Source: Opitutus sp. GAS368
GTDB taxonomy: Bacteria > Verrucomicrobiota > Verrucomicrobiia > Opitutales > UBA953
Assembly (NCBI GenBank): GCA_945866215.1
Contig: CAMBGQ010000019.1
Span: forward strand, 1-32,367
DNA length: 32,367 bases
Direction of reading: 5' to 3'
Below the pieces are notes generated by a model. The model saw nothing but the letters and a program-made list of their open reading frames with translations. It was not told the origin of the DNA and ran no database searches. The position numbers and the translations under genes were made by a program. Each line of letters begins with the position of its first letter. The stretch's first letter is position 1. Positions 26,394 to 29,145 of this stretch are shown piece after piece.

Positions 26394-26468
26394 GCTCCTG
26401 TATTTCAATGGATAGAATGCTGGCCTCCGAAGCCGGCGATTTGGGTTCGACTCCCAACGGGAGCACCA
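26394..26468 (+). tRNA. tRNA-Arg (CCG anticodon)
   Basis: 75 nt. The acceptor GCTCCTG pairs with CGGGAGC (one G-T pair). The anticodon stem CTGGC/GCCGG encloses loop CTCCGAA with anticodon CCG. T-arm GTTCGACTC and encoded CCA are present. It decodes CGG, a useful codon in a GC-rich genome. Confidence 0.95.
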
Positions 26469-26507: not shown

Positions 26508-26631
26508 GTAGGGATGCGATTGCCATCGCATCCGTTCGACTCCGAGGCCGGAAGTCGTCGGCCCTTGGCTAGCCTCGGTTGATGTCTTGGCGTACCGGTT
26601 CAAACGGACGTGATGGCAATCACGTCCCTAC
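26508..26631. repeat. REP-like doublet 1 (inverted GTAG-footed hairpins)
   Basis: Left unit: GTAG, then a 9-bp stem beginning GGATGCGAT with loop TGCC (26508-26533). Right unit: the same layout on the other strand (26606-26631), stem GGACGTGAT. The two stems differ at two positions and both differences are compensated in the opposite arm, so base pairing is conserved. The 72-bp spacer holds a CCGAGGC/GCCTCGG inverted repeat. A G-rich tract (26493-26513) runs into the left foot. The right end lies 3 bp from the MFS stop codon. Confidence 0.85.
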
Positions 26632-26634
26632 CTT

Positions 26635-27894
26635 TTAAGCCCTCTCTTCCTGCTCTCCCGTCACCTTACTGCCGACGGTGAGCATGACGATGAAGCCGAT
26701 GATGGCGTAGCAGATTGACGAACCGAGCAGCACGTTACGCAGTTGGAAGAGGTCGGTCATCCAGCCCATGATGATGGCGGCGAAGGGGAGGAAGCCGAAG
26801 AAGCTCAGGCCGGCGACGGCGGAGACGCGGCCGCGCAGTTCGGCGGGCGAACGTTCCTGGACGATGGTATTGGCGAGGCCAACCAGCGTCGAGACGCCGA
26901 TCGCGAGGCAGACGAGCGAAGCGCCGGCCCAGACGAGGTCATTGGCTTGACTGAGGCTAACGAGCGCACCGCAGGCGAGGACCATGCCGGTGAGGATGGC
27001 GAGGCGGCGCAGGCTCGAGCGTAGGGCCATGATGAGGAGCGAGCCCGAGACCGACCCGAGGCCCGAGCACAGCATCAGCAGGCCCATCTGCTCGGGTGTG
27101 GCGCCCAGGTCGTTCCGCGCATAGAGCGGTAACAGCACGATGATGACGGGGAAGACGAACAGGGTGTTGGTGGCGAGCAGCGCGACCATCGCGAGGCTCG
27201 GCTTATCCTGGCGGACGTGGCGGAAGCCTTCGCCCGCACCGCCTTGGCGCTTCTGTTCTTCCTCGGCTGTACCCTGCGGCCGGCGCGGCAGCGTCGCTAA
27301 GGCGACCATCAGCGCCACGAAGGAAGCCGCATTCAGGTAGAAGGCCCATTCGGCGCCGTAGCGTCCGACGAGATAGCCCGCGGCGGCTGGGCCCACGAGA
27401 CGGGTAGCGTGGAAGAGCGCGCGGTCGATGGCGATGGCCTTGGCGACGTTTTCCTTGGCGACGAGTTCCGGGACGATCGCCGCGGCGGCAGGCATCTCGA
27501 AGGAGCTGGAGACGCCGAGCAGGGCCGCCGCCACGATCAGATGCCAAGTCTGCAGGGCGTCGTGGGCGATCAGCTGTCCGATCGCCAAGGCGAAGCCGAT
27601 CTGGGCGACCTGGCAGATTTGCAAGATGAGCCGTTTGTCATGGCGGTCAGCCAGCGCGCCGCCGAGACGAAAGAGCAGTAGCATCACCACGCCGCTGGCG
27701 AGATGCGGCGCTGCTTGCAGCAGGCCCTCGTATTTCTGGAGTCCATCCCGGACCACGACTTCGGTCATCACCCAGCCGAGGGCCATGCCCTGCATCCAGG
27801 TGCCCGTCATGGAGACTCCCTCGCCGACCATGTAGCGCGTGAACGGTCCGTTCGGGAAACGTTCAGCGTTAGGATTGGTGGAGGCGGAGGACAT
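26635..27894 (-). CDS. MFS transporter, EntS-like exporter family
   Basis: 419 residues from the ATG at 27894; the codon before it is TTG and offers no advantage. About 12 hydrophobic segments. MFS signatures are GGALADRHDKRLIL (the G-x-x-x-D-R-x-G-R-R-like loop after helix 2), RGRVSAVAGL in the second half, and long helices such as LIVAAALLGVSSSF. The pattern matches the MFS_3 enterobactin-exporter group, which moves siderophores or drugs outward by proton antiport. The central loop (TLPRRPQGTAEEEQKRQGGAG) is charged and cytoplasmic. The substrate is unknown. REP-like doublets stand at both ends of the gene: doublet 1 just after the stop and doublet 2 about 70 bp upstream. Confidence 0.88.
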   Translation of the reverse strand: MSSASTNPNAERFPNGPFTRYMVGEGVSMTGTWMQGMALGWVMTEVVVRDGLQKYEGLLQAAPHLASGVVMLLLFRLGGALADRHDKRLILQICQVAQIGFALAIGQLIAHDALQTWHLIVAAALLGVSSSFEMPAAAAIVPELVAKENVAKAIAIDRALFHATRLVGPAAAGYLVGRYGAEWAFYLNAASFVALMVALATLPRRPQGTAEEEQKRQGGAGEGFRHVRQDKPSLAMVALLATNTLFVFPVIIVLLPLYARNDLGATPEQMGLLMLCSGLGSVSGSLLIMALRSSLRRLAILTGMVLACGALVSLSQANDLVWAGASLVCLAIGVSTLVGLANTIVQERSPAELRGRVSAVAGLSFFGFLPFAAIIMGWMTDLFQLRNVLLGSSICYAIIGFIVMLTVGSKVTGEQEERA

Positions 27895-27965
27895 CAACGG
27901 GGCAAAGTTGGCGACAAAGCCTCAAAGTGCAAAGGGAATGGCTCGAACCAGATTATTGTGGCCCG

Positions 27966-28019
27966 GTAGGGCCGACCATCCTTGGTCGGCCGCGGTCGAG
28001 CAAGGATGCTCGACCCTAC
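27966..28019. repeat. REP-like doublet 2 (inverted GTAG-footed hairpins)
   Basis: Left unit: GTAG plus stem GGCCGACCA with loop TCCT (27966-27991). Right unit, on the other strand: GTAG plus stem GGTCGAGCA with the same loop (27994-28019). Two stem positions differ between the units and both are compensated. It is followed at once by two heptamers (CAACCGC, TCACCGC; 28021-28034), which recur beside doublet 3. Confidence 0.87.
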
Positions 28020-28043
28020 CCAACCGCTCACCGCTGACCCCGG

Positions 28044-28751
28044 TTACTTCTTATAGGCGGCTTCCGTCGCCTGCCAGGCGGCGTCGACGGCGGGCTTTAG
28101 CACGGAAGCGATGGCCTTGTAGCCTTCGGCGGCGGGATGGAGGTTGTCCTTCAGGTAGCTGCCGGGCTTGCCTTCACCGTTCGGGAGGTTGAGCGCGACG
28201 TTGATGTCCACATACCAGAGATTCTTTCCTTCCTTCACGATCTGCTCGAGCTGGCGGTTATACTCGTCGAGCAGGGGCCACTTGGCTTTACGTGAAGGTG
28301 CACGGGTGGTGGCGACGAAGACCACGGCGCAGTCCGGGTTCTCCTTGCGCAGACGGGCGAGGTATTCGCGGATGCGCGCGATGGGGGCTGCGACGGGGTC
28401 ACCGGAGTTGATGTCGTTACCGCCACACTGGAACACGACCACGCGCGGGTGGTAAGGTAGCGTGATGCGATCCATGTAGCCGAGGACCTCAGTCGTGAAG
28501 GAGCCACCGAAGCCGCGGTTGATCACCGGGTAGGGCTTCATCTCCTCGCCGACGTTCTTCCACATGCGCAGCGTGCTGGCACCCGTGAAGAGGAGGGCGT
28601 GTTGGGGCGGAGGGTTAGCCTGATCGGCGGCTTCGAAGGCGGTGATGTCCTTGGCCATACGCAGCGGCTGCTGGGCCAGGGGAATGTGGGGCTTGGTGAC
28701 GTCAGCCGCGAAGGCGGTGATGGCGAGAAGGCAGGTGAGGAGGGCTTTCAT
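28044..28751 (-). CDS. Exported SGNH/GDSL-type hydrolase
   Basis: 235 residues from the ATG at 28751; signal peptide MKALLTCLLAITAFA. SGNH blocks: ALLFTGASTLRMW (block I, GDS replaced by GAS, nucleophile Ser59), NRGFGGS (block II Gly), FQCGGNDINSGDP (block III Asn) and DNLHPAAEGY (block V Asp-x-x-His). It is expected to deacetylate or de-esterify carbohydrates in the periplasm, in line with other exported enzymes nearby. The ATG at 28826 would translate the hexamer and octamer repeats and is rejected. A hexamer tract precedes the true start by 7 nt. It ends close to doublet 2. Confidence 0.87.
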   Translation of the reverse strand: MKALLTCLLAITAFAADVTKPHIPLAQQPLRMAKDITAFEAADQANPPPQHALLFTGASTLRMWKNVGEEMKPYPVINRGFGGSFTTEVLGYMDRITLPYHPRVVVFQCGGNDINSGDPVAAPIARIREYLARLRKENPDCAVVFVATTRAPSRKAKWPLLDEYNRQLEQIVKEGKNLWYVDINVALNLPNGEGKPGSYLKDNLHPAAEGYKAIASVLKPAVDAAWQATEAAYKK

Positions 28752-28758
28752 ATTGAAA

Positions 28759-28777
28759 GGGTCGGGGTAGGGGTAGG
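28759..28777. repeat. Hexamer tract, G-rich on plus strand (copy D)
   Basis: G-runs GGG, GGGG, GGGG, GG separated by TC, TA and TA, which reads on the mRNA strand as C-rich CCCCTA-type units. It lies 7 nt upstream of the SGNH start codon. It is the fourth of four tracts placed at exported-protein starts. Confidence 0.8.
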
Positions 28778-28810
28778 AAAAGGCAGGGAGGGCGGGAGGG
28801 CAACAAAATG

Positions 28811-28874
28811 GAGGAAACGAGGACACGAGGGCACGAGGACAGGTGGACTCGAGGACACGAGGGCTGGAGGTATG
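28811..28874. repeat. Octamer tandem repeat (eight units)
   Basis: Period-8 units GAGGAAAC, GAGGACAC, GAGGGCAC, GAGGACAG, GTGGACTC, GAGGACAC, GAGGGCTG, GAGGTATG. Unit ends vary but GNGG is kept in every unit. It lies in the 394-bp gap between the SGNH and DUF5069 genes, which holds no gene. Confidence 0.8.
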
Positions 28875-28888
28875 AAAGCGAGGTTATG

Positions 28889-29073
28889 GCGGTTAGCGGA
28901 TAGCGGTTGGGGTAGCTGCATTTTTCGCCGCAGGGCGAAACCGGGTAGGGGCACGATTCATCGTGCACTCCGCAGGGGAGGGCGCGGCGTAGCCACGCCC
29001 CTACCTCGGGCCGCCCTGCGGCGGCCCAAATGTATCTTGTTTTTCTAACCGCTTACCGCCAACCGCTATCCGC
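28889..29073. repeat. Nested palindromic element around REP-like doublet 3
   Basis: Outer 16-bp perfect inverted repeat (28895-28910 and 29059-29074). The arms are themselves heptamer repeats: GCGGTTA, GCGGATA, GCGGTTG on the left; TAACCGC, TTACCGC, CAACCGC, TATCCGC on the right. Inside are a TTTCGCC-gcag-GGCGAAA hairpin (28923-28940), doublet 3 and a GGGCCGC/GCGGCCC hairpin (29008-29027). No gene is contained. Confidence 0.75.
28945..29004. repeat. REP-like doublet 3 (inverted GTAG-footed hairpins)
   Basis: Left unit: GTAG plus hairpin GCACGAT-tc-ATCGTGC (28945-28966). Right unit on the other strand: GTAG plus a 9-bp stem GGGCGTGGC with loop TAC and one G-T pair. It has the same architecture as doublets 1 and 2 but different stem sequences. 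Confidence 0.83.
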
Positions 29074-29145
29074 TCAGACCTATCTTGGGGTTTTGGCTTT
29101 CCTCTGCCATCTGTCCTCCGTCATCTTTTATCTAACCTTACTCCC

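Follow-up and report, generated by a model that had tools for sequence, protein, structure and literature searches.

Three pairs of inverted, GTAG-footed hairpins lie within 2.5 kb of the window (the whole stretch of 32,367 nucleotides analyzed), and they raise the question of what they are and what brought hairpins with such different stems so close together. REP sequences are recognized by a short hairpin with the tetranucleotide GTAG (or GGAG/GTGG) on its 5' side. The preliminary description read the three pairs as REP/RAYT-type elements, and this reading holds: copies are numerous, they form inverted doublets with covarying stems, and RAYT genes of congeners are accompanied by the same hairpins. 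The three doublets are very probably REPINs spread by RAYT (TnpA-REP) transposases, with each family served by its own cognate RAYT clade. The window belongs to contig C19 of a MAG (G000; 1.9 Mb, 97 contigs, 85.5% complete), for which the closely matching contigs, among named records, are those of freshwater uncultured Opitutae. The features concerned are as follows.

26394..26468, + strand: tRNA-Arg(ccg), upstream neighbor of doublet 1
26508..26533, + strand: doublet 1 (family B), left REP unit, GTAG + GGATGCGAT/TGCC/ATCGCATCC
26534..26605, no strand: doublet 1 (family B), spacer, 72 nt
26606..26631, - strand: doublet 1 (family B), right REP unit, inverted, GTAG + GGACGTGAT/TGCC/ATCACGTCC
26635..27897, - strand: MFS transporter, between doublets 1 and 2
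27966..27991, + strand: doublet 2 (family A), left REP unit, GTAG + GGCCGACCA/TCCT/TGGTCGGCC
27992..27993, no strand: doublet 2 (family A), spacer, GC
27994..28019, - strand: doublet 2 (family A), right REP unit, inverted, GTAG + GGTCGAGCA/TCCT/TGCTCGACC
28044..28826, - strand: GDSL lipase, between doublets 2 and 3
28923..28940, no strand: outer hairpin of the family I composite, TTTCGCC-gcag-GGCGAAA, beyond the coordinates of the preliminary description
28945..28968, + strand: doublet 3 (family I), left REP unit, imperfect, GTAG + GGGCACGA/TTCA/TCGTGCAC
28980..29004, - strand: doublet 3 (family I), right REP unit, inverted, GTAG + GGGCGTGGC/TAC/GCCGCGCCC
29008..29027, no strand: second outer hairpin of the family I composite, GGGCCGCC-ctgc-GGCGGCCC

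All six inverted units lie where they had been placed originally. Those of doublets 1 and 2 (26508+, 26631-, 27966+ and 28019-) are recovered by a window scan as perfect GTAG hairpins with a 9-bp stem and a 4-nt loop, and the scan finds no further GTAG hairpin of comparable quality across the 32-kb window. When the scan is run over all 256 tetranucleotide feet, GTAG has 4 matches, compared with a mean of 0.35; the overlapping feet GGTA and TAGG also have 4 each, and AAAA has 5. The stems of doublet 1 (GGATGCGAT and GGACGTGAT) differ at two positions, as do those of doublet 2 (GGCCGACCA and GGTCGAGCA), and every change is compensated in the opposite arm, as had been reported. The right unit of doublet 3 (29004-) has a 9-bp stem with one G-T pair and a 3-nt loop, and shares 96% identity with a RAYT-I-flanking unit. 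The left unit (28945+), read by hand, is imperfect (8-bp stem, one mismatch, TTCA loop) and is also present at L097.

Doublet 3 lies at the center of a ~105-bp composite with four hairpins (28923-29027) that recurs genus-wide, with copies mostly at 87-92% identity. It is surrounded by an outer inverted frame, AGCGGATAGCGGTTGG ... CCAACCGCTATCCGCT (28890-29075). In sister species this frame also encloses unrelated inserts (IG3 of L206, L216 and L217) and is therefore a separate repeat family. G-rich tracts of the GGGNNAGGG type, with a natural GGTAGGG and no hairpin, occur at 28770-28790 of the window and in IG1 and IG3 of relatives, and are possible insertion targets.

The preliminary description expected further inverted GTAG-GG hairpins elsewhere in the genome, and these are abundant. 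A covariance model of the unit identifies 123 related units in G000, and the stretches around its matches (~306 kb) contain 164 GTAG hairpins, 126 of which sit in 63 head-to-head doublets, within sequence thus picked around matches. The scan of these stretches demanded GTAGGG and left the preceding base free; G precedes GTAG in 164/164 units, all of which read G-GTAG-GG, so the foot here is GGTAG. Doublet midpoints fall outside ORFs of at least 100 aa in 54 of the 63 cases and inside in 9, compared with 83.5% of random positions inside, the ORFs being greedily picked frames and not annotated genes. Family-pattern counts reach 130 per genome, and the reversed control gives 0 in every genome.

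Assignment to the nearest RAYT-flanking unit divides the G000 units into families A (52), B (49), K (18), F (13), C (9) and G (9), with I (3), L (2), H (2) and D (1) as minor families and six units left unassigned. Doublets 1, 2 and 3 of the window represent families B, A and I, respectively. The right unit of doublet 1 is identical to a RAYT-B-flanking unit of L123, the left unit of doublet 2 is identical to a RAYT-A-flanking unit of L084, and letter-for-letter identity to another species' RAYT-flanking unit extends to 90/164 own-genome units. These matches overturn two earlier claims. Each doublet had been credited with its own stem sequence, whereas the doublets are copies of multi-copy families with few stem variants; the hairpins of one short window look unrelated because they are drawn from different families. 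Selection had been placed on structure and foot but not on the stem, whereas the family stem follows the RAYT clade and the 90 exact matches include it. To judge from the sequences compared, constraint acts on the stem inside each family, a different stem takes its place in the next family, and the foot alone is common to all.

The families also differ in spacing. Family A spacers measure 2 or 4 nt, and those of family B 64-66 or 69-72 nt, with conserved ends and, in most spacers, gttcg at the start. In all 28 short-spacer doublets a CC-type half (CT in one of them) is paired with a GC-type half, and none of the long-spacer doublets is built from two halves of one type. Such pairing would be expected if an ancestral heterodimer had been copied; heterodimer preference has been described as unexplained (PMC3733652). 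Hybrid doublets combining a family K half and a family B half around a shared spacer type occur at L170:2917, L178:2899, L187:2939, L188:2590 and L194:6130, and RAYT-K and RAYT-B lie close on the RAYT tree. A further repeat, gggaaaccggagaccggatgattggctgg, is found in many gaps, often adjoining REPINs (IG1 of L209, L214 and L220; L166:2840; L345; L349), and short direct repeats of the form GAGTATGGAGTATCGAGTAT occur in gaps of several species (IG2 of L206, L209, L212 and L215).

Stem covariation, anticipated in the preliminary description, is present across copies: over 26 distinct units, 99.6% of cells are paired, compared with 67% after shuffling and at most 47% after sliding, and 66 cells are changed on both sides, compared with 20.6 expected from shuffling, in a test that is partly circular and overstates independence because the units were chosen as hairpins. 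The window scan and the family-pattern count per genome are free of this pre-selection. A long hairpin spanning both halves was rejected as the conserved structure: Watson-Crick pairing is 74% across the halves vs 96% within them, and under DNA parameters the local double hairpin is the more stable form in 20/20 distinct short doublets.

The preliminary description called for a RAYT gene in this genome or its relatives, and the relatives supply it. None was found in G000 (85.5% complete) with PF01797, NF047646 or a genus alignment, which leaves two readings: orphan copies at present, or a RAYT gene located in the 15% of the genome not recovered. In the genus, the RAYT model NF047646 matches 36/55 congeneric genomes. 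PF01797 was discarded as sole detector, being too weak here; NF047646 and the genus alignment did better. The identity of these genes is supported by NF047646 (E 2e-24) and E. coli TnpA-REP (PDB 4ER8, E 3.3e-13). The HUH motif, the catalytic Tyr and the RAYT profile are present, with strict motif patterns matched in 43/50 and the misses mostly pattern misses.

Small RAYTs are regularly enclosed by GTAG hairpins: among the 48 with room on both sides, hairpins are found on both sides of 39, on one side of 6 and on neither side of 3, counting as small the extended reading frame L132, which the tree places in this class. Long Y1 genes (~308-333 aa) were rejected as mobilizers, with GTAG hairpins beside 0/5 loci that have room on both sides and a separate clade on the tree. 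Stems of family A flank RAYT-A (L084, L086), those of family B flank RAYT-B (L123, L134) and those of family I flank RAYT-I (L097, L110, L133); at L097 a complete composite of the doublet 3 type, with its four hairpins, stands on either side of the gene. On a RAYT tree of 57 Y1 transposase genes of the genus, 16 flanking-hairpin labels ('none' and '?' included), assigned from hairpin sequence ahead of tree building, need 16 changes (minimum 15; shuffled mean 41.3), an agreement in part expected from joint inheritance of gene and flank, and with five labels hand-set or hand-corrected where the automatic rule had misread them.

The putative foot-reading motif, WQ-x4-DH-x2-R, is kept in 48/50 RAYTs; one exception is truncated and the other ends DHRLS. 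In E. coli, the GTAG foot is read by W94, Q95, E100, H101 and R104, and D at position 100 is reported for subclasses 2.5 and 2.7 (PMC6006769). The RAYTs of this genus have residues matching W94, Q95, H101 and R104 of TnpA-REP, but carry D, not E, at position 100. At L099 (G028:C18), MPDHLR replaces the HUH motif and family G hairpins still lie on both sides; by its sequence, this RAYT is probably inactive.

Copy number is high in genomes that carry the cognate RAYT. For family A, the RAYT-A carriers G016 (101 copies) and G004 (53) rank 1 and 4 of 55, and for family B, the RAYT-B carriers G062 (130) and G068 (32) rank 1 and 5 of 55; the medians of the other genomes are 1 and 2, respectively (one-sided p ~0.01 each, kinship uncorrected). 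At least 20 units with no cognate RAYT found are present in eight genomes for family A and in seven for family B, and G019, at 99% completeness, has 27 family B units and no RAYT found. In Pseudomonas fluorescens and Stenotrophomonas, REP abundance likewise tracks the cognate RAYT, and the copies without RAYT seen in Pseudomonas are explained by RAYT loss (PMC3686654); in E. coli, REPINs are kept in genomes without RAYT (PMC8049555).

Comparison of orthologous sites points to turnover. The tRNA-Arg/MFS gap contains a family B doublet in G000, G012, G070 and G027, and family A or family F in other genomes. Doublet 2 occurs in G000 alone among the MFS/lipase gap sequences listed, part of the 28 extracted. 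At site S7, G000 has an intact B doublet, G008 a degenerate one and G012 one half, and G070 and G027 have none; at S6, a B doublet is present in G000, G012 and G008 and absent from G070. An A doublet is missing from G012 at S5, and an F-G-A cluster from G070 at S3. Sites that carry a doublet in one genome and lack it at the orthologous place in another show both gain and loss, and deletion accounts for the absence at some of them. No pre-existing GTAG that could have served as target is present at the empty sites of S6 and S7.

At three places in orthologous gaps, different families start at the identical base: B and F after '...ggggttggg', A and F after '...ggtaa[t/c]attg', and D, B and F after '...atgag', where the D/F part may be divergence since these two families are similar. 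The loci are IG1 of L206/L216 and of L209/L215, and S1 L183:3000 with L335 and L337. Because the GGTAG foot is common to all families, the RAYT belonging to one family may take the foot of another family's resident element as its target, so that families replace one another at the same base. We consider this unlikely, but if foot re-use is true, the foot would be a common docking site and the stems a private address. Same-base occupation is the sole observation here without a confident place in known behavior, and the most unusual lead.

The REPIN reading describes a non-autonomous mobile repeat of two inverted GTAG-footed hairpins, mobilized by a RAYT, an HUH transposase of the IS200/IS605 superfamily. 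By analogy with E. coli TnpA-REP, the RAYT would act on single-stranded DNA, recognizing the GTAG foot by means of conserved residues and the stem of the hairpin by contacts that differ between clades. Cleavage would be followed by copying of the doublet into intergenic DNA, a sequence of events modeled on the E. coli enzyme. The copies in G000 are probably orphans of RAYTs lost or absent from the assembly, and would be slowly decaying.

Chance formation of hairpins in GC-rich DNA would be favored by the G+C content of 63% and by the similar counts for overlapping or A-rich feet in the window alone, but the 123 covariance-model matches in the own genome and the up to 130 family-pattern matches per genome, vs 0 in the reversed control, refute it, leaving it a negligible probability. 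RNA elements, either bidirectional terminators or mRNA-stabilizing hairpins spread by selection for function and not by a transposase, are more plausible and still very improbable. The doublets are intergenic, with 15 in convergent and 6 in divergent gaps (background 27 and 22 of 118), their stems contain GT pairs, and doublet 1 closely follows tRNA-Arg. Against this, dispersed copies share exact stems with transposase flanks of sister species, orthologous sites of close species differ in doublet presence, and a conserved T run is absent: none was seen by eye in the sequence 3' of the doublets, where an intrinsic terminator would have it. A secondary effect of the doublets on RNA is possible.

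An origin through a different transposase, the doublets being its non-autonomous IS elements or MITEs and the RAYT link incidental, would fit the inverted-repeat form, the short or conserved-ended spacers and the MITE-like look of the family I composite with its surrounding AGCGG frame. It is rendered still less credible than the RNA reading by the RAYTs that are flanked by hairpins on both sides at many independent loci, matching by clade, by the long Y1 genes of the same genomes, which lack GTAG hairpins, and by a foot and doublet form that are those of REPs. RAYT-spread REPINs thus remain the preferred explanation.

REPIN-RAYT systems are a known kind. The closest likeness in taxonomy is Opitutus terrae, of the same class of bacteria, whose REPs carry a GTAG foot and form several families side by side; they include head-to-head dimers spaced by 1-2 nt as well as heterodimers, and their stem changes are complementary (PMC3733652). 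The present case concerns another genus with small genomes of ~2 Mb, and the likeness is drawn from the published description. In Pseudomonas fluorescens and Stenotrophomonas, too, a group contains numerous REP classes, every one of them linked to a RAYT (PMC3686654), whereas the host here belongs to Opitutae and its own genome holds traces of about ten families with no RAYT found. The E. coli REP/BIME system with TnpA-REP (PDB 4ER8) shares the RAYT fold family, GTAG foot, inverted doublets and REPtron layout; unlike E. coli REPs, the units here have 9-bp stems and 3-4 nt loops. IS608 and the IS200/IS605 elements share the HUH Y1 transposase and the hairpin with a tetranucleotide at its foot, but no self-mobile left-end/right-end unit is seen here, and the RAYT genes lie within REPtrons. 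No prior description of a REPIN-RAYT system in this genus was found in the searchable literature, and the genus represents a new case of a known kind. With at least 11 REPIN families, most of them matched to one RAYT clade, it combines an invariant foot, a near-invariant foot-reading motif and clade-varying stems in a natural panel for the RAYT residues that read the stem, and it is also suited to testing whether persistence of REPINs is possible without a RAYT.
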